The notes under the pieces: model-generated | Told to the model about the DNA's origin: nothing | The model's input: the letters and a program-made list of their open reading frames with translations, nothing else | Databases searched by the model: none | Shown: piece by piece, positions 1,322 to 10,078 of the stretch | Layout: each line of letters begins with the position of its first letter | Position numbering within the stretch: position 1 is the stretch's first letter | Source: Planctomycetaceae bacterium | Lineage (GTDB): Bacteria; Planctomycetota; Phycisphaerae; Phycisphaerales; SM1A02 | DNA: 64,000 bases | NCBI GenBank assembly: GCA_947490615.1 | Contig: CANLHK010000004.1 | Span: 1-64,000, forward strand | Direction of reading: 5' to 3' | Position numbers and translations under genes: made by a program

Positions 1322-3637
1322 ATGGCCTCTTCTCTTCACACGACCAACGCCGTTCCTACCCGCTCGAGCATGGCTAGTCAGGAGGGATCCGCGTCGGCGC
1401 TGGAACGATTCAGCTACGACGACGCGGTGGTGCGGTGGTTCATGGGTGCCTCGTTGCTGTGGGGGGTCGTCGGCATGTTGGTGGGGGTCATTGTGGCCCT
1501 CCAACTGGCGGACCCGCGCTTCAACCTCGGGCTCCAGTGGCTGAGCTTTGGTCGCTTGCGGCCGCTGCACACCAACGCGGTCATCTTCGCGTTTGCGGGT
1601 AACGCCATCTTCGCGGCGGTCTATTACTCCTCGCAGCGGTTGCTCAAGGCCCGCATGTTCAGTGATGCGCTGTCGTGGATCCATTTTGTTGGCTGGCAGT
1701 TCATCATTGTGTCCGCGGCGCTCACGCTGCCGCTCGGCTACACGCAAGGCAAGGAGTACGCGGAGCTCGAATGGCCGATCGATATCGCGGTGGTTTGCGT
1801 GTGGGTCGTGTTCGCAGTGAATTTCGTGGGAACGCTGATTCGCCGACGCGAGCGACACCTCTATGTCGCGCTCTGGTTCTACATCGCCACAGTCGTGGCG
1901 ATCGCAGTGCTCTACATCTTCAACAACCTTGTGATGCCCGCAGGATGGCTGCGTTCGTACTCCGTCTATGCGGGTTCGCAGGATGCGTTCATGCAGTGGT
2001 GGTACGGCCACAACGCCGTTGCCTTTTTCTTGACGACCCCGTTTCTTGGCCTGATGTACTACTTTCTGCCGAAGGCGGCCGAGCGGCCGGTGTTCTCGTA
2101 CCGCCTCTCGATCGTGCACTTCTGGAGTCTGGTTTTTCTGTACATCTGGGCGGGTCCGCACCATTTGCACTACACGGCGCTCCCAGAGTGGGCTTCGACG
2201 CTGGGCATGCTGTTCAGCGTGATGCTGTGGATGCCTTCCTGGGGTGGCATGCTCAATGGGTTGCTGACGCTGCGAGGCGCGTGGCATCGCGTGGCGACTG
2301 ATCCAGTGCTCAAGTTCTTCGTCGTTGGCATCACCTTCTATGGGATGTCGACATTCGAAGGTCCCCTGCTCTCGGTCAAGAGCGTGAACGCTCTGAGTCA
2401 CTACACCGATTGGACCATCGCCCATGTGCACGCAGGCGCGTTGGGTTGGGTGGGGTTCATGTGCTTTGGCATGTTCTACTGGCTCGCGCCGAGACTCCTG
2501 CAGACGCCAATCGCAAAGCCGTCGTGGGTGGTGTTGCACTTCTGGATCGCGACGATCGGCATCTTGCTTTATGTCCTTGCGATCTACTGGGCGGGGCTTA
2601 CCCAGGGGCTGATGTGGCGGGCGTTCGACCAGGACGGCATGTTGCAGTTCCCCGACTTCATCGAGACGGTCACGCTGCTAGTTCCTTACTACTGGATTCG
2701 TGTCGTCGGTGGATCGCTGTATCTCCTCGGCGCGATTCTGATGGGTCTCAATCTCATCCTTACCTGGGCGCGCCGACCGCGACAGTACGAAGTCCCCGTA
2801 TACGAGGCCGCATCGCTGCGCAGCGGTTTCCAAGAGTCACCGATTCCTGGTTCGGCTCTTCCGCGGGGGTATGTGATCGAGTTTGCTCGCAAGCTCGATG
2901 TGTTCTCGCAGCTTCGATGGCACCGCAAGTATGAGGGCTTGCCGATCGTGTTCACAGTGCTGGTGGCGATCGGTGTCGTCGTCGCGAGCCTTGGCGAGAT
3001 GGTCCCGCTGTTCACGCGGAAGTCCGATGTGGCGCGCATCAGCAGTGTTGAGCCGTACACGCCGCTCGAGTTGATCGGCCGCGACATCTACATTTCCGAA
3101 GGCTGCGTGAATTGCCACTCGCAGATGATCCGCCCGTTGCGCGCGGAAACCGAGCGGTACGGCGAGTATTCCAAGCCCGGCGAGTTCGTGTTTGATCATC
3201 CATTCCTGTGGGGTTCGCGACGCATTGGCCCGGACCTTGCGCGCACGGGCAAGAAGATCCCCTCGCCGCTCTGGCACTTGCGGCACATGAATCAACCCAC
3301 CGACACCAGTCCTGGTTCGATCATGCCGCCGTATCCGCATCTCCTGGAAGGAGCGCTCGACTTTGGTCAAGCAGTCGAGACGATCACCGCCATGAAGGCG
3401 CTCGGGGTGCCGTATGCAGAACCAGTGATTGCGGACGCCGCGGGGATCGCGCGCACACAGGCGGATGAAATCGCCAAGCGCATCGTCGCTGAGGCGGGAC
3501 CTGCAGGGCTTGGTGATCGAAAGGTCGTGGCGCTCATTGCGTACCTCATGCGGCTCGGCACCGATCTCGACAAACCGCTCGTCGTTCCAGCGCTCGGTGC
3601 CACGCCGATTGCTGCGCAGCAGGGTGGTGGCCAATGA
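1322..3637 (+). CDS. ccoNO: Fused cbb3-type cytochrome c oxidase subunits I and II (CcoN-CcoO)
   Basis: The 771-residue protein joins the catalytic haem-copper subunit CcoN (about residues 1-500) to the mono-haem c subunit CcoO (from about residue 520). The CcoN part has about 12 membrane segments and the conserved histidine blocks: RPLHTNAV for haem b, WWYGHNAV and GPHHLHYT for CuB, and HYTDWTIAHVHAG for haem b and b3. STFEGPLLS is typical of C-family oxidases. The CcoO part has one membrane segment and CVNCH near residue 595. The enzyme reduces oxygen to water in the cytoplasmic membrane and pumps protons, usually at low oxygen. The gene heads a tightly coupled cco operon, and its stop overlaps the ccoQ start (ATGA). 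Fused CcoNO is known in some bacteria but is less common than separate genes. Confidence 0.96.
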   Translation: MASSLHTTNAVPTRSSMASQEGSASALERFSYDDAVVRWFMGASLLWGVVGMLVGVIVALQLADPRFNLGLQWLSFGRLRPLHTNAVIFAFAGNAIFAAVYYSSQRLLKARMFSDALSWIHFVGWQFIIVSAALTLPLGYTQGKEYAELEWPIDIAVVCVWVVFAVNFVGTLIRRRERHLYVALWFYIATVVAIAVLYIFNNLVMPAGWLRSYSVYAGSQDAFMQWWYGHNAVAFFLTTPFLGLMYYFLPKAAERPVFSYRLSIVHFWSLVFLYIWAGPHHLHYTALPEWASTLGMLFSVMLWMPSWGGMLNGLLTLRGAWHRVATDPVLKFFVVGITFYGMSTFEGPLLSVKSVNALSHYTDWTIAHVHAGALGWVGFMCFGMFYWLAPRLLQTPIAKPSWVVLHFWIATIGILLYVLAIYWAGLTQGLMWRAFDQDGMLQFPDFIETVTLLVPYYWIRVVGGSLYLLGAILMGLNLILTWARRPRQYEVPVYEAASLRSGFQESPIPGSALPRGYVIEFARKLDVFSQLRWHRKYEGLPIVFTVLVAIGVVVASLGEMVPLFTRKSDVARISSVEPYTPLELIGRDIYISEGCVNCHSQMIRPLRAETERYGEYSKPGEFVFDHPFLWGSRRIGPDLARTGKKIPSPLWHLRHMNQPTDTSPGSIMPPYPHLLEGALDFGQAVETITAMKALGVPYAEPVIADAAGIARTQADEIAKRIVAEAGPAGLGDRKVVALIAYLMRLGTDLDKPLVVPALGATPIAAQQGGGQ

Positions 3638-3801
3638 CGACGCTCGCCGTCTCGATGCCTGAACTCTCTTTGATCTTCTTCCTCGTCCTCTTCGTCGGGC
3701 TCGTGGCGTGGCTGGTGTCGTCACGCTCGACGCGTTGGGATCGGGACGCACGCATTCCGCTCGATGAGTCGAGCGACGGAGGTACGAACCATGTCCGCTG
3801 A
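3634..3801 (+). CDS. ccoQ: Small cbb3 oxidase subunit CcoQ/FixQ
   Basis: This 55-residue protein starts at the ATG that overlaps the ccoNO stop. It has one hydrophobic segment (about residues 11-29, LSLIFFLVLFVGLVAWLV) followed by a polar tail containing DARIPLDE, which resembles the CcoQ motif after its membrane helix. CcoQ stabilises the cbb3 complex. Its end overlaps the start of ccoP by 11 bases and contains the Shine-Dalgarno GGAGG used by ccoP. Position, size and topology all fit. The sequence is too short for a firm homology call by eye. Confidence 0.8.
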   Translation: MTTLAVSMPELSLIFFLVLFVGLVAWLVSSRSTRWDRDARIPLDESSDGGTNHVR

Positions 3802-4429
3802 ATCGAATCCTCAGCAGCCCCGACTTCTCGATCACGATTGCGATGGCATTCGCGAGTACGACAATCCCATGCCGCTGTGGTGGACGGCGATTCTCTGGGT
3901 GAGCGTGATTCTCTCGCTGCCGTACTTCGTGTTCTATCACGCGGGCGGTGTCGGATCTTCCGCCGCGGCCGACTACGAAACTGAGGTCGGCGAGTTTTAC
4001 GAGATGCAGTCCGCCAAGCTTGGTGACTTGCAGCCTGATGCAGCGACGATTCTCACGCTCGCTCAGGACACCAAGAAGTTGCTCGGCGGAAGGAACATGT
4101 TCAAGGTGAACTGTTCGATCTGCCATGGCCCCGACGGCGGTGGAAAGACTGGGCCGAATCTCAGCGACGACTACTACCTCAACATCAAGCAACCTGAAGA
4201 CATCGTGCGCGTGCTGCGCGACGGCCTCGAATCGAAGGGAATGCCGAAGTGGGGGAAGCGGTTTAGTGGCCCGCAATTGGTTCTGCTCGCCTCGTATGTG
4301 GTGAGTTTGCGCGGGACCAAGCCAGCATCACCTCGCGAACCGCAAGGCGATCGCGTGGCAGTCTGGGCCATTCCACCGGCTGCTGCTGCCGCGACATCGG
4401 CCGCGAGCGACGCAGCAGCGAAGCCCTGA
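3791..4429 (+). CDS. ccoP: Mono-haem cbb3 oxidase subunit III (CcoP)
   Basis: The 212-residue protein has one membrane segment near residues 33-53 (LWWTAILWVSVILSLPYFVF) and a single cytochrome c domain with CSICH near residue 108 and GMPKWG supplying the probable axial Met. CcoP passes electrons from soluble or membrane cytochrome c to CcoO. The start at 3791 was chosen because GGAGG at 3778-3782 lies 8 bases upstream; an earlier in-frame start at 3764 would lie inside ccoQ with no such motif. Most CcoP proteins have two haem c domains and about 300 residues, so this one is short and lacks the second CxxCH. The C-terminus is an Ala-rich tail. Confidence 0.93.
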   Translation: MSAESNPQQPRLLDHDCDGIREYDNPMPLWWTAILWVSVILSLPYFVFYHAGGVGSSAAADYETEVGEFYEMQSAKLGDLQPDAATILTLAQDTKKLLGGRNMFKVNCSICHGPDGGGKTGPNLSDDYYLNIKQPEDIVRVLRDGLESKGMPKWGKRFSGPQLVLLASYVVSLRGTKPASPREPQGDRVAVWAIPPAAAAATSAASDAAAKP

Positions 4430-4446: not shown

Positions 4447-6045
4447 ATGAATCGGACGATTCCACTTCCTGTACTTGACGCGTCTACCGACGCTGGTCCT
4501 TACCTCAAGCCCGAGGGGCGAGTCCTCGCGACGCTTGAGCAAGATGGACGCAGGCGTTGGCTGCGACCAAAGCCAAGTCCAGGCCCGTGGTGGCGGCGCA
4601 GACTCATGGTGGCGTGGGTGCTCATCGCGCTCTACACCGTGATTCCGTGGATCAAGTTCAAGGGGTTGCCGCTGGTCCTCCTGGACTTAGTCGAACGGAA
4701 GTTTGTGTTCCTCGGCACCGTTTTTCGGCCGACCGAGACGCTGCTCTTCGGCGTGCTCTCACTGCTTGTCTTCGTTGTCGCGTTTCTGTTGACCGCGCTA
4801 CTCGGTCGCGTGTGGTGTGGATGGGGTTGCCCGCAGACGGTCTACCTCGAGTTTGTCTTTCGCCCCTTAGAGCGCGTGTTCCTCGGACGCGGCTACTCGA
4901 GTCCCCACGCTTCGGTTCCAGGTTGGCGACGCGTCGCGCTGTCCGCAGCGCAAGTCGTCGTCTGCGCTCATCTCGCCAACACGCTGCTCGCGTGGTTCGT
5001 CGGAGCAGACAATCTCACGCGCTGGATCTTCACGAGCGCGCCATCCGCGCATCCTGTGGCGTTCGCGGTCTTCGCGAGTGTGACCCTGCTGATGCTCTTC
5101 GACTTCCTGTACTTTCGCGAGCAGTTGTGCTCTTTGGCGTGCCCGTACGGCAGACTGCAATCAGCGCTGCTTGATCGTGACTCCCTCATCGTGGGCTATG
5201 ACAAGAAGCGTGGTGAGCCTCGAGGCAAGGGTGCGCGCAAGTCGGCAGGCGCGCACGCTTGTGGCGGCAAGTGCAATGGCCAGGGCGGCTGCGGGAGCGG
5301 ATCAAAGTGCGATCACGATCACGATCACGATCAGGATCACGATCACGATCACGCAGCGGAGCGCCTTGCGGCGAGCACTCCTGCACGCGGCGATTGCGTC
5401 GACTGCACGCTCTGCGTTCAGACATGCCCGGCGGGCATCGACATCCGCGACGGCTTGCAGTTGGAGTGCATTCAGTGCACGCAGTGCATCGATGCTTGTG
5501 ACGCGGTCATGCGAAAGTTGTCGCGGCCAACTGGGCTGATTCGATATTCCTCAGAGCGTGCGCTCCAAGGAACGCCGCGCACTGGTGTTCGCATGCGCTT
5601 GGTTGTGTATCCACTACTCCTCGGAGTCTTGGTCATCGCAGCTGGGTACTTGTTGATGACCCGCACCGATGGTGCCGTCGCGTTGCTGCGCACACAGGGC
5701 GCGCCTTACATCGTGAAGCAGCTTGAACCTCGCGGCGAGACCATCGAAAGCGTGGTTCGCCTCCGTATCGACAACCGCACGCGGGGGGCTCTGACCTACA
5801 CCGTTGCGGCAGGTGAAGGCGTCGAGTTGCTTCGCGCCGAGAGCGTCGAGGTGCAGGGTGACGCCAGCCGTGAGGTCGATGTCGTGGTGCGAAGTGGACC
5901 CAACGACTTCCTCCGTGGTCGTCGCGAGATTGAGTTGTCGATCACTGAACAAGGTGCTCGCAAGGGCGCCTATCGCGCGACGGTCAAGACCGCCGTGCTT
6001 GGCCCGTTGGTGATTCCACCACTTCGTTCTGGAGGCGCCTTATGA
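4447..6045 (+). CDS. ccoG: Cytochrome c oxidase accessory protein CcoG with His/Cys-rich metal-binding insert
   Basis: The 532-residue membrane protein has the CcoG/RdxA/FixG layout: several membrane helices, the GRVWCGWGCPQ motif near residue 120, a two-cluster ferredoxin region with CVDCTLCVQTCP and CIQCTQCIDAC near residues 318-350, another helix, and a C-terminal Ig-like periplasmic domain. CcoG is reported to act as a cupric reductase in cbb3 assembly. Between the membrane part and the ferredoxin domain there is an extra segment with C272, C276, C282 and C288, followed at once by a 14-residue Asp-His run (289-302). This is not usual for the family and looks like a metal-binding loop. The gene lies between ccoP and fixH and its stop overlaps the fixH start. 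Confidence 0.94.
   Translation: MNRTIPLPVLDASTDAGPYLKPEGRVLATLEQDGRRRWLRPKPSPGPWWRRRLMVAWVLIALYTVIPWIKFKGLPLVLLDLVERKFVFLGTVFRPTETLLFGVLSLLVFVVAFLLTALLGRVWCGWGCPQTVYLEFVFRPLERVFLGRGYSSPHASVPGWRRVALSAAQVVVCAHLANTLLAWFVGADNLTRWIFTSAPSAHPVAFAVFASVTLLMLFDFLYFREQLCSLACPYGRLQSALLDRDSLIVGYDKKRGEPRGKGARKSAGAHACGGKCNGQGGCGSGSKCDHDHDHDQDHDHDHAAERLAASTPARGDCVDCTLCVQTCPAGIDIRDGLQLECIQCTQCIDACDAVMRKLSRPTGLIRYSSERALQGTPRTGVRMRLVVYPLLLGVLVIAAGYLLMTRTDGAVALLRTQGAPYIVKQLEPRGETIESVVRLRIDNRTRGALTYTVAAGEGVELLRAESVEVQGDASREVDVVVRSGPNDFLRGRREIELSITEQGARKGAYRATVKTAVLGPLVIPPLRSGGAL
5311..5352 (+). repeat. Seven-unit hexamer tandem repeat coding for (Asp-His)n in ccoG
   Basis: Seven tandem copies of GATCAC lie in frame, the fourth reading GATCAG, and encode DHDHDHDQDHDHDH. 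Because the units are almost identical at DNA level the tract is probably young and prone to length change by slippage. Confidence 0.95.
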
Positions 6046-6539
6046 GTCTCATCGCCAATCGATGGATGTTTGTTCCGATCGGTCTGCTCTCTCTGACCGT
6101 CACCATTGCCACGCTCACCGTGCTGTCGGCGGTCGTGGGCCACCCACTTGGGATGGAGCCAAGCTACGACGCGAAGGCCGCCTCCTGGGAGAGCGAGCGC
6201 GCGCAGCGCGCAACCAACGAAGCGCTTCGCTGGGTCGTCACGCCCGACATTACTTCCGACGGACCAACCCACTCGCTCGCGCTGCGCATCGAAGACAAGC
6301 ATGCTGCGCGCATCAACGCCTCCAGCGTGAGGGTCGAGTGCATTCCTGTGCGCGCCGCCGAGATGCGCCAGACGATTGAACTCTTGCGCGGCGAGCTTGG
6401 TGAGTTCTCCTGCTCCTTCGATTCTCCCGTCGGTGGTCAGTGGGAGTTTCGCGTGACGGTCGAACAGGGTGCCTTGCGATACACCGATGCATTCAGGCGT
6501 TTCTTGACGGGCACGCTGAAGGAGCCACGCCATGGTTGA
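6042..6539 (+). CDS. fixH: cbb3 oxidase assembly protein FixH/CcoH
   Basis: The 165-residue protein has one N-terminal membrane helix (about residues 7-30), PSYDAKAASWE just after it, and a periplasmic beta-rich domain with YTDAFRRFL near the end. This matches FixH/CcoH, a membrane-anchored factor needed for stable assembly of the cbb3 complex. The start overlaps the ccoG stop, with GGAGG eight bases upstream. The end overlaps the next gene by 8 bases. Confidence 0.85.
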   Translation: MSLIANRWMFVPIGLLSLTVTIATLTVLSAVVGHPLGMEPSYDAKAASWESERAQRATNEALRWVVTPDITSDGPTHSLALRIEDKHAARINASSVRVECIPVRAAEMRQTIELLRGELGEFSCSFDSPVGGQWEFRVTVEQGALRYTDAFRRFLTGTLKEPRHG

Positions 6540-7365
6540 GTCGCTTCAGTCGGATGGATCAATCCTCGCGCTCGCGGGAACGGTGCTCGCCTCGAGTTTG
6601 CTCGGGAGTGCGCACTGCGCGGGCATGTGCGGCGGACTCGCGGTCGTCGCCATCGGCCCCAACGACGGCGCGAAGACTCCGCGACAAGTTGGATATCACG
6701 CAGGCCGACTGCTGAGTTACTCTCTCGTTGGCGGCATCGCGGGACTTGCTGGGCAAGTCGTCGACGATGCGGGCGTTCTCGTGGGCGTGCAGCGTGTGGC
6801 GGCGATGGCTGCGGGTGTGACCATCGCGCTGTGTGGGCTTCTCGCCATCGCGCGCGCTCTCGGCGCTCGCGTTCCGAGCGCAAGCGTCCCGCTGCCGCTC
6901 GTGCGCGCCGCTCAACGCGTGCATGCGTGGACTCTTCGACTTCCACCGAAACATCGTGGTATTCCCATTGGACTCGCGACTCCGCTCTTGCCTTGCGGCT
7001 GGCTGTACGCCTTCGCTGCGATTGCTGCAGGCAGCGCTTCGTTGCCGCTTGGCGTGTTGGTGATGGCTTCGTTCTGGCTCGGCACTGTGCCTGCCATCGT
7101 GCTCGCTTCGAACGGCGCACGGTTCGCGTTCTCCAGGCTTGGTCGCGCTGCGCCGATCGCTCTCGGTGCTGCGATGGTGGCTGTTGGAATGCACGCCGCG
7201 TTCGTTCGGGGTGGAGCGGCGGAGCGCGCGCTTGCGGGTGTGAAGGACATCCAACCCTCTGCGCTGGTTGAGCTGTCGACGCAAGCGCGGCAGCAAGCAA
7301 GTGAGCGACCGCCGTGTTGTGCACACGAAGTTGATCCGACACGCGGCGAAGGTGGCACGCCATGA
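6532..7365 (+). CDS. Membrane protein of the DsbD/TauE-SafE-like family in the cco operon
   Basis: The 277-residue protein has six or more hydrophobic segments. GSAHCAGMCGGL near residue 23 is the paired-cysteine first-helix motif of the short DsbD-like (DsbD_2 / 'sulfite exporter TauE/SafE') family, which is often found in cco operons and is thought to move reductant or copper during oxidase maturation. GLATPLLPCGWLYAF near residue 145 is the second conserved helix. The tail has CCAHEVD near the C-terminus, a possible metal site. It sits between fixH and ccoI with overlaps at both ends. The exact substrate is unknown. Confidence 0.85.
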   Translation: MVESLQSDGSILALAGTVLASSLLGSAHCAGMCGGLAVVAIGPNDGAKTPRQVGYHAGRLLSYSLVGGIAGLAGQVVDDAGVLVGVQRVAAMAAGVTIALCGLLAIARALGARVPSASVPLPLVRAAQRVHAWTLRLPPKHRGIPIGLATPLLPCGWLYAFAAIAAGSASLPLGVLVMASFWLGTVPAIVLASNGARFAFSRLGRAAPIALGAAMVAVGMHAAFVRGGAAERALAGVKDIQPSALVELSTQARQQASERPPCCAHEVDPTRGEGGTP

Positions 7366-9866
7366 AGCGAACCGAACCAGCGGCGGCCCTCGGCCATCGC
7401 GTTGAATCCGCGTGTTCGCACTGCGGCCTCCCGGTTCCTCTCGCCGAGGCACGGGTTGGTGACGACCAACAATTCTGCTGCGGCGGTTGTCGCGCCGTCT
7501 ATGGCGCGCTCCATGAATGCGGCCTTGAACAGTACTACGAGCTGCGCGATCGCGAGCGGATGAGCGAGGCGACCCAGGCGGAACCAGCGCATGTCTCAGG
7601 CCGCGGCTTCGAGCATCTCGACGATCCTGCATTCTTGACGGCGCAGACGGCGTGCGATGCTGCAGGTGTTCGCAGCGTCGAACTGCGCATCGATGGCATT
7701 CGCTGCGGAGCGTGCGTGTGGTTGCTTGAGGCGATGCCGCGCATCGTCCGCGGCGTTCTCTCGGTTCGCGTCGACTCGGCGCGTGGTCTCACGCGGCTCA
7801 TTTGGGACGATCGGATCATCGCGCTTTCTGCCATCGCAAAGCGATTCGATGCGCTTGGCTATCAGCTCCATGCCTTTGGCGATCCGGAAGCCGTCGTGCG
7901 CGAGCGCGCCATCCATCGCGCGTGGATTGTGCGCATGGGAGTCGCGGGTGCCATCGCCAGCAACGCCATGGCGGTCGCGTTCGCGCTCTATGGCGGATTG
8001 CTCACCGAAATGGCGCAGTCGTATCGTCTGTTCTTCCAATGGTGCTCGGTGGCACTGGCCGTGCTCGCGGTGGCCTGGCCTGGCCGTGTGTTTCTTATCA
8101 ACGCCGTGACCGCCTTGCGTGCGCGCACGCCACACATGGATGTTCCGGTCGCGTTTGGCCTCGTTGCAGCGGTCGGTGCGGGCATCATCGCGACGGTCCA
8201 AGGCACGGGCTCGATCTACTGCGAGAGCGCAGCGATGCTGGTGTTTCTGCTGCTGGTCGGCCGATTCGTGCAGTATGGACGACAGCGGCGCGCGCGCGAA
8301 CAGGTCGAGCTTCTTCTGGCCATCGTTCCGTCCGTCGCGCGCAAGGTCACGCAGGAGCATGGTCGCGAGAAGTTGATCGAGGTTGCCATGGGCGCATTGG
8401 TCCCGGGCGACATCGTGGAGGTTCCCGCGGGAGAAGCCTCACCTGCAGACGGACGACTGCTCACGGATTCTGCGCATCTTGATCTCGCGCATCTCACGGG
8501 TGAGTCGCGCCCAGTGCGCATTGAGCGCGGCGGACCGATCTATGCCGGTTCGCGCGTCTTGGAATCGCCGATGCGCGTCGAGGTCACGGTGTCAGGGACC
8601 GAGACACGCGCCGCGCGGCTGCTCGCGTTGGTGCGCGAGGCGGGCGAACGGCGCGCTCCGATTGTCGAGCTTGCCGATCGCGTCTCAGCGTGGTTCCTTC
8701 CGACCATCGTCGTGGCCGCGCTGGTCACGATCCTTTGGTGGTGGCCACGCATCGGTGCGGAACAGGCCTTGGCGCGCGCGGTCGCGATGCTCGTGGTGAC
8801 CTGTCCGTGTGCGTTGGGCCTCGCAACGCCGTTGGCGGTTGTCGCAGGAATCGGCAAGGGCGCGCGACGCGGCGTTCTTGTGAAGGGCGGTGATGTCTTG
8901 GAGCGCGCGTCGAAGCCAGGCACGCTGGTGCTCGACAAGACCGGCACCGTGACCGAAGGCCGCACGCGCGCGATTCGATGGATCGGTGAACCGAGCGCGC
9001 TTGCCGATGCAGCGTGCGTCGAGATGCACAGCGCGCATCCGGTTGCCCGCGCCGTCGTCGATGGATTTGGCGAATCGGCGGGCGCGCAAGCGAAAGCCGT
9101 GGGCGTGCGCGAGATTCCTGGCCTTGGAATCGAAGGCCGCGTCGGCGCGAAATTGGTCCGCGTCGGAAGCATGCGCTTCATGCGCGAGCGTTCAGCCACC
9201 GTGTCCGACGAGGTGCAGACCTACGCGGCGGAGTGCACGGTTGCGGGACTGGCTCCGCTCTTCATCGCCATCGATGGCTGCGTCGCCGCAGTGATTGGTA
9301 TCGGCGATCCGATTCGCGCGGACGCTCGGAGCACGGTGTCGCGGTTGCAACGCGCGGGCTGGAAGATCGTGCTGGCCTCGGGCGATGATCCTGTTGTGAC
9401 CTCGGGTGTAGCGAAGGCTCTCGGTCTTGAAGCTCGAAATGCGCACGGCGGGCTCTCGCCTGAGGAGAAGCTGGCGTTTGTCCTGCGCGCCGATCTCGCG
9501 CGTCCCGTCGTGATGGTGGGCGATGGCGTCAACGATCTTGCGGCACTTGCCGCGGCCGATGTTGGCGTCGCGGTTCGCAATGGTGCGCAGGCATCGCATC
9601 ATGTTGCCGATGTCTGTCTTGCCGCCCGCGGCCTTCGGCCTCTTGAGCGATTCATCGTGGGTTCACGCAGCACGATGCGGGCGATCCGTGTGAATCTCGC
9701 GGTGAGTGTGGGCTACAACGCAGCGGGCGGCGTGTTGGCGTTTGCTGGATTGGTGAACCCACTGGTCGCTGCGATCCTCATGCCATTGAGCGGACTCACG
9801 GTGCTGGTCCTGGCACTGCGTATGCCGTCCTTTGCTCTTCCAGACTCTCCCAAGGAGGAACGCTGA
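7362..9866 (+). CDS. ccoI: Copper-translocating P-type ATPase CcoI/FixI
   Basis: The 834-residue protein has a cysteine-rich N-terminal domain (CSHCG near 18, CCGGCRAVY near 38), a heavy-metal-associated domain with GIRCGAC near 112, eight expected membrane helices, the ion-binding CPC in VTCPCALGLATPL near 478, the phosphorylation motif DKTGT near 525, and GDGVND near 719. HSAHPVARAVV is the HP nucleotide-binding motif of P1B ATPases. CcoI exports copper across the inner membrane for the CuB site of cbb3 oxidase. The start overlaps the preceding stop (ATGA) and the stop overlaps ccoS (TGATG). Confidence 0.96.
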   Translation: MKRTEPAAALGHRVESACSHCGLPVPLAEARVGDDQQFCCGGCRAVYGALHECGLEQYYELRDRERMSEATQAEPAHVSGRGFEHLDDPAFLTAQTACDAAGVRSVELRIDGIRCGACVWLLEAMPRIVRGVLSVRVDSARGLTRLIWDDRIIALSAIAKRFDALGYQLHAFGDPEAVVRERAIHRAWIVRMGVAGAIASNAMAVAFALYGGLLTEMAQSYRLFFQWCSVALAVLAVAWPGRVFLINAVTALRARTPHMDVPVAFGLVAAVGAGIIATVQGTGSIYCESAAMLVFLLLVGRFVQYGRQRRAREQVELLLAIVPSVARKVTQEHGREKLIEVAMGALVPGDIVEVPAGEASPADGRLLTDSAHLDLAHLTGESRPVRIERGGPIYAGSRVLESPMRVEVTVSGTETRAARLLALVREAGERRAPIVELADRVSAWFLPTIVVAALVTILWWWPRIGAEQALARAVAMLVVTCPCALGLATPLAVVAGIGKGARRGVLVKGGDVLERASKPGTLVLDKTGTVTEGRTRAIRWIGEPSALADAACVEMHSAHPVARAVVDGFGESAGAQAKAVGVREIPGLGIEGRVGAKLVRVGSMRFMRERSATVSDEVQTYAAECTVAGLAPLFIAIDGCVAAVIGIGDPIRADARSTVSRLQRAGWKIVLASGDDPVVTSGVAKALGLEARNAHGGLSPEEKLAFVLRADLARPVVMVGDGVNDLAALAAADVGVAVRNGAQASHHVADVCLAARGLRPLERFIVGSRSTMRAIRVNLAVSVGYNAAGGVLAFAGLVNPLVAAILMPLSGLTVLVLALRMPSFALPDSPKEER

Positions 9867-10078
9867 TGGAGCTCGTGTACATCGCACTTCCTGTGGCCTT
9901 ACTCATCGGCGGTGTCGCGCTGGGGGCCTTCATTTGGGCTGCGCGCGACGATCAGTTCGAGGACTTGGACACGCCGCCGCGGCGCGCGATCTTCGATGAT
10001 GTGGCGGTCAAACCTGATCGGCCCACCGTGAACGGGGCGCATTCGAGCCGTGAGCCGCTCGACACGCGGCAATCCTGA
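9866..10078 (+). CDS. ccoS: cbb3 oxidase maturation protein CcoS
   Basis: The 70-residue protein has one N-terminal helix (IALPVALLIGGVALGAFIWA) followed by ARDDQFEDLDTPPRRAIFDD. The pattern FxWAxxxxQFEDLxxPxxRxxxDD after a single helix is diagnostic of CcoS. CcoS is needed for copper and haem insertion into the oxidase. AGGAGG at 9854-9859 and the TGATG overlap with ccoI support this start. It is the last gene of the cco operon. Confidence 0.93.
   Translation: MELVYIALPVALLIGGVALGAFIWAARDDQFEDLDTPPRRAIFDDVAVKPDRPTVNGAHSSREPLDTRQS

Follow-up and report, generated by a model that had tools for sequence, protein, structure and literature searches.

The CcoG protein encoded by a planctomycete contains a Cys- and His-rich insert directly ahead of its ferredoxin motifs, which raises the question whether the Cys and His residues form one conserved metal-binding element that could capture or store copper next to the redox centre, as a sequence-only reading of the locus had suggested. 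The window, a stretch of 64,000 nucleotides (contig CANLHK010000004.1, positions 1 to 64,000), was compared with genomes of the same genus, order, class and phylum, and the two parts of the insert were followed separately.

ccoG, its operon and the linker insert

The gene ccoG (fixG/rdxA; 4447–6045, forward strand) encodes a cbb3 oxidase assembly protein of 532 aa. Its assignment as CcoG, already proposed from the letters, is firm by sequence: the protein matched the TIGR02745 equivalog with 370.1 bits (cut-off 316.7), contained Fer4_18, Fer4_5 and FixG_C, and ended in an Ig-like domain (PF11614; 31.3 bits, cut-off 25.6), for which 2r39, a FixG-related protein, was the best PDB fold match. Two C-x3-C motifs, Cys124-x3-Cys128 in the membrane part (4816–4830) and Cys228-x3-Cys232 (5128–5142), as well as the first (Cys317/320/323/327-Pro; 5395–5430) and second (Cys341/344/347/351; 5467–5499) 4Fe-4S motif, all on the forward strand, were invariant in 59 of 59 aligned CcoGs, the alignment being also the source from which these motifs were defined as CcoG features. 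Since these 12 core Cys were invariant in all 59 sequences, the insert is regarded as an addition to an intact core.

The surrounding operon has the order ccoNO-ccoP-ccoG-ccoH-DsbD_2 protein-ccoI-ccoS, with all genes on the forward strand. It consists of fused cbb3 oxidase subunits I/II (ccoNO, 1322–3637; NF011053, 1166 bits), ccoP (3764–4429; FixP_N and Cytochrome_CBB3), ccoH (FixH, 6042–6539; PF05751), a DsbD_2-type membrane protein (6532–7365; PF13386), ccoI for a P1B-type metal ATPase with an N-terminal metal-binding region (7362–9866; named from PF12156, TIGR01525 and its operon position) and ccoS (9866–10078; PF03597, 60 bits). The cco gene order was kept around the other nine loop-bearing copies, as far as the contigs reach. 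As side observations, positions 1–306 of the window seem, by eye, to be the 3′-terminal part of a 16S rRNA gene, with the cco operon starting about 1 kb later, and the DsbD_2-type protein carries a C-terminal Cys-Cys pair, which recurred in L263, L265, L267, L268, L270 and L271.

The insert comprises residues 261–314 (54 aa; 5227–5388, forward strand) and is bounded by RGEPRG on one side and the GDCVDC ferredoxin motif on the other, which confirms its proposed place behind the membrane part and ahead of the ferredoxin motifs. In the 532-aa translation, the four Cys were found exactly where they had been placed, at residues 272, 276, 282 and 288, within a metallothionein-like Gly/Cys loop (C-x3-C-x5-C-x5-C; 5260–5310, forward strand), and were followed by DHDHDHDQDHDHDH at residues 289–302.

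AlphaFold2 modelling of full-length CcoG gave a mean pLDDT of 86.1 and a pTM of 0.79, with residues 271–276 and 279–300 at a pLDDT <50; the insert is predicted to be a flexible arm ahead of the ferredoxin motifs. A 161-aa segment modelled alone reached a pLDDT of 44.3 and was uninformative. A 21-residue consensus of the loop, searched against the PDB, returned 0 matches at E 10. With CcoG as query, the PDB fold search yielded only 2r39 and general Ig-like domains among the best 50 matches shown, and the profile search nothing beyond ferredoxin-type proteins and, again, the Ig-like 2r39, a full CcoG structure being absent among the PDB matches shown. The loop is placed on the cytosolic side by analogy with published CcoG knowledge, as given in the available text of PMC7558416 and PMC8475189.

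Compared with R. capsulatus CcoG/FixG/RdxA (TIGR02745), the window protein shares the domain content, the core Cys motifs, the Ig-like C-terminus and the cco operon, but adds the 54-aa linker with its Cys-rich loop and Asp-His tract, whereas the linker of the others is mostly shorter than about 40 aa and Cys-free.

Distribution of the Cys loop and selection on its codons

Sixteen genomes of the genus, including the own assembly, were searched for CcoG. A near-full-length protein was found in ten (the main copies), only weak matches with E near 1e-3 were obtained in G012 and G015, four genomes gave none, and G010, one of the ten, contained two further copies. All ten main copies carried the loop, with four to six linker Cys, and eight of them showed the usual pattern C-x3-C-G-C-D-x2-GG-C-(GSG)-x2-C or one near it. 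The C-x-C pair, present in eight of ten loop copies, is missing from the window loop, which lacks the middle Cys through a two-codon gap; in L007, the linker is a looser Gly/Cys run with altered Cys spacing and a C-C pair. The two further CcoGs of G010, also encoded within cco operons, were loopless, with linkers of 10 and 6 residues containing one and no Cys, respectively. As an observation on this genome, it holds three cco operons (L271, L272 and L273), of which two are truncated at contig ends; only L271 encodes a Cys-loop CcoG.

The resemblance to metallothioneins is one of style only (Gly/Cys-rich, C-x-C in most genus copies, no predicted fold); the loop is part of a 532-aa membrane protein instead of a free small protein and has only 4–6 Cys. 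The window loop contained neither C-x-C nor C-C, the pairs taken as the metallothionein criterion, and no metallothionein family of Pfam or NCBIfam matched the window CcoG at E 0.001.

Four to six Cys adjoining two ferredoxin motifs in a redox protein could also serve as ligands of a further Fe-S cluster, or assist in its assembly, with this cluster lengthening the route of the electrons. Their spacing, mostly C-x3-C-G-C-x5-C-x5-C (L007 and the window differ), does not, however, resemble that of the protein's own C-x2-C-x2-C-x3-C motifs, and copies differ in having between 4 and 6 Cys, which leaves an extra cluster quite unlikely.

Outside the genus, the CcoG segment was matched in 64 of 397 genomes of a class sample and in 74 of 392 genomes of a phylum sample, the two samples overlapping, and loci from named genomes were additionally read for the best 80 of 258 confirmed stretches. 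After duplicates had been collapsed, 201 distinct linkers were readable; that of G658 was left uncounted because it is split between contigs. Linkers with at least four Cys amounted to 10 of 12 copies in the genus against 2 of 189 elsewhere (L058 and L099), counts which are not independent draws because the proteins share ancestry. Elsewhere, 186 of the 189 linkers were Cys-free and that of L129 had one Cys, as did L035 within the genus; linkers outside the genus were mostly short. No linker with at least four Cys was found in the 34 loci of other phyla (counted by hand from record titles) within the best 80 of 258 stretches, and a limited literature search did not find such a loop described in CcoG. 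Based on the class and phylum samples, conservation of the loop across Phycisphaerae was rejected. The prospect that all close relatives would lack the insert, with no sign of selection, was not borne out either, since the loop is conserved in position in every main copy of the genus.

Maximum-likelihood analysis of 59 CcoGs grouped the ten loop copies in one clade (support 100/99), which together with the loopless G010 pair made up a 12-row clade (100/98). L058 and L099, from distant planctomycetes, have similar Gly/Cys loops at the same linker site and were placed elsewhere in the tree, surrounded by loopless proteins; loopless rows lie between the two, L058 pairs with the loopless L026, and this region is only partly resolved. 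The simplest reading would be that the loop was gained once in the genus and once or twice outside it; a label count on the tree, in which ungrouped rows are ignored, is compatible with a single origin for L058 and L099. Because linkers with at least four Cys occurred outside the genus only in these two distant planctomycetes, the trait looks convergent.

Sequence and length around the loop vary among the genus linkers. Over the ten copies, the loop Cys codons comprised 32 TGC and 18 TGT. Codon changes were counted on the tree for nine aligned copies, L007 being omitted because its Cys spacing does not align, and all were synonymous (TGC/TGT), with 0 replacements. The number of synonymous events was 13 by script, with the unresolved root treated as a hard polytomy, and at least 10 by hand, with the best root resolution for each column. 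At a synonymous share of 0.2–0.25, the neutral chance is <1e-6 for the 10 events counted by hand and 8e-10 and 1.5e-8 for 13. Since change at these codons was synonymous only, the Cys part of the insert is, judged by its codons, under purifying selection, and drift as the origin of the loop was rejected. A drifting, GC-rich low-complexity spacer, Cys included, would fit the wide variation in linker length, and Gly/Cys-rich stretches easily arise in GC-rich DNA; set against the synonymous-only Cys codons of nine copies and the contrast between the ten main copies and the 189 outside linkers, this disfavoured reading is very improbable.

The Asp-His tract

The tract DHDHDHDQDHDHDH (5311–5352, forward strand) consists of seven GATCAN hexamers, as seen from the sequence, its codons and TRF, which reported positions 5310–5353 with a period of 6, 7.3 copies and 94% match. 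The earlier description as an (Asp-His)7-type, seven-unit hexamer repeat was right as to the units and needs correction as to the residues, which are seven Asp but only six His, because the fourth unit is GATCAG (Gln). Within the own assembly (3.26 Mb in 28 contigs, completeness 96.9%), runs of three GAYCAY units were confined to the tract (2 matches, both inside), and a reversed control pattern gave 0 matches. The codons of the tract were uniform (GAT 7/7, CAC 6/6), for which P is about 3e-4 relative to 47% GAT and 61% CAC in eight genes of the window.

The Asp-His run is present in the window CcoG and absent from the other nine main copies, eight of which have 1–5 linker His; the ninth, L013, has 14 in a different sequence, arranged as a His-rich stretch of mixed codons and different order just after the Cys loop. 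Conservation of the tract in the genus was rejected, as the window copy alone carries it, and the idea of Cys and Asp-His residues as one conserved element did not hold. By their sequences, the Cys loop and the Asp-His tract are two features with different histories. Past slippage is likely because the tract codons are uniform, and the tract is most likely a recent, lineage-specific slippage product.

Whether this product is neutral and functionless, resulting from hexamer slippage in a disordered linker, appears evenly balanced: the uniform codons, the nine main copies without a tract and a six-base unit that preserves the frame all fit neutrality, but in L013 the Cys loop is directly followed by another His-rich stretch, of different sequence and with mixed codons, and the tract is the sole site of three consecutive GAYCAY units in its genome. 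Judged from its residues, the tract may or may not bind metal.

An 18-base Asp-His pattern was found in 12 of the 16 genus genomes, in unrelated proteins including a ZIP protein (L243) and ATP synthase subunit a. The following side observations concern these proteins. In L252 (G009), ATP synthase subunit a (PF00119) ends in a His/Asp-rich tail, and the tail in L261 (G014) is very similar by eye. L253 (G001) encodes a protein with several 4Fe-4S domains and an Asp-His run at the end of the frame seen, together with a molybdopterin-binding match below its cut-off, and the tails in L247 and L249 are similar by eye. In small lipoprotein-like proteins of L245, L246, L251 and L258, a lipobox-like Cys is soon followed by three to six Asp-His units in a row; the L245 protein had no Pfam family match. 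The window tract has in common with His-rich loops or tails, for example of ZIP transporters, an (Asp-His)n run within a segment that is probably flexible; it differs in being part of CcoG, beside a Cys loop, and in occurring in only one CcoG copy.

A set of four Cys separated by Gly, with Asp/His alongside, suits Zn(II) no less than Cu(I). The loop might therefore bind Zn(II), or another divalent ion, in a structural or regulatory site without being a copper carrier, and the Asp-His run in the ZIP-family protein of the genus (L243) agrees with this; given that the loop sits in the CcoG of a cbb3 oxidase operon and that AlphaFold2, which models no metals, shows no folded unit for it, a Zn(II) site is considered rather unlikely.

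Copper handling by a putative thiol arm

R. capsulatus CcoG is described, in the available text of PMC7558416, as a Cu(II)-reducing protein that carries two 4Fe-4S clusters and, in addition, two Cu sites; the same text suggests it as a Cu(I) supplier for CopZ and P1B ATPases. CcoI is thought to get Cu also from donors besides CopZ, according to the available text of PMC8475189. Reductase activity and cytosolic side of the window protein are taken from this Rhodobacter literature, by analogy.

The preferred reading, to which we assign a probability of roughly 0.5, is that CcoG acts as a cupric reductase with a flexible thiol arm, which takes Cu(I) from the reductase and hands it to CcoI or buffers it. 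The arm, with its four to six thiols next to the pair of 4Fe-4S motifs, would have arisen a single time, at the root of the genus's main CcoG lineage. Cu(II) would be reduced by the CcoG core, and the Cys loop would take up the resulting Cu(I) at once, protect it against re-oxidation and deliver it by thiol exchange to the ATPase CcoI, whose gene lies three genes downstream of ccoG, or simply buffer it. In the window strain, the slippage-born Asp-His tract would lengthen the arm and could weakly capture Cu(II), Zn(II) or Ni(II), or equally have no function. Metal binding by the loop, copper as the metal and the hand-over to CcoI are steps that we infer from sequence. The copper idea of the sequence-only reading is plausible for the Cys loop and weak for the Asp-His tract; most simply, the thiol arm would accept, buffer or hand over Cu(I), with Zn(II) or a further Fe-S cluster as possible alternatives.

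Counting against a copper arm are the window loop, without the C-x-C pair of most copies, the altered spacing in L007, the absence of linker Cys from nearly all CcoGs outside the genus, and the retention by G010 of two loopless paralogues in cco operons. The Cu sites that CcoG is reported to have already (PMC7558416, available text) count against the need for one.

A comparable concept is found in CopZ of Archaeoglobus fulgidus, where, as far as the available text of PMC7558416 goes, Fe-S-based Cu(II) reduction and Cu(I) binding are combined in one polypeptide; that protein is a cytosolic chaperone fused to an Fe-S domain, whereas the window protein has a short flexible thiol loop in a membrane reductase, and no homology is claimed.

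Possible copper partners were searched in the same 16 genus genomes. The Csp-type family PF03860 gave no match in any of them, a control B. subtilis genome being positive. HMA domains were present in all 16 (50 matches), 29 of them in small proteins and 21 in frames of 416–1092 aa; the latter, large or cut, were taken as ATPases or pieces thereof, those inspected being the own CopA and a portion of G015:C29. The own genome encodes a CopA-like ATPase and one small HMA protein with a hydrophobic, exported-looking N-terminus. None of the 29 small HMA proteins of the genus looks cytosolic; all appear exported- or lipoprotein-like by eye, no predictor being used. For comparison, 16 loopless genomes of the order gave 58 HMA matches, for which 20 regions and one neighbour in L333 were fetched, some smaller frames of G048, G053 and G057 lying outside these regions. 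In this incomplete reading, G024 alone showed chaperones that clearly look cytosolic, L324 (G034) was ambiguous, L328, L334 and L335 gave no frame with the search motif, and G036, G037, G042, G046 and G224 contained ATPase-sized HMA frames only. As cytosolic-looking copies are scarce in loopless genomes too, absence of CopZ was rejected as a loop-linked trait; it fits the proposed arm without singling out the loop bearers. A CopZ substitute would also hardly be required, because loss of CopZ in R. capsulatus lowers cbb3 activity only slightly, according to the available text of PMC8475189.

A bolder extension of the thiol-arm reading can be put forward only tentatively and is doubtful at present: the genus CcoG would be cupric reductase and Cu(I) chaperone in one, its tethered arm would feed CcoI directly without CopZ, and such arms would have arisen two or three times in planctomycete CcoGs. 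Recurrent gain of thiol arms would suggest that Cu(I) leaves CcoG at this linker. A selected thiol arm beside the clusters would offer a direct, mutable handle on the exit of Cu(I) from CcoG and on the loading of CcoI by routes other than CopZ.
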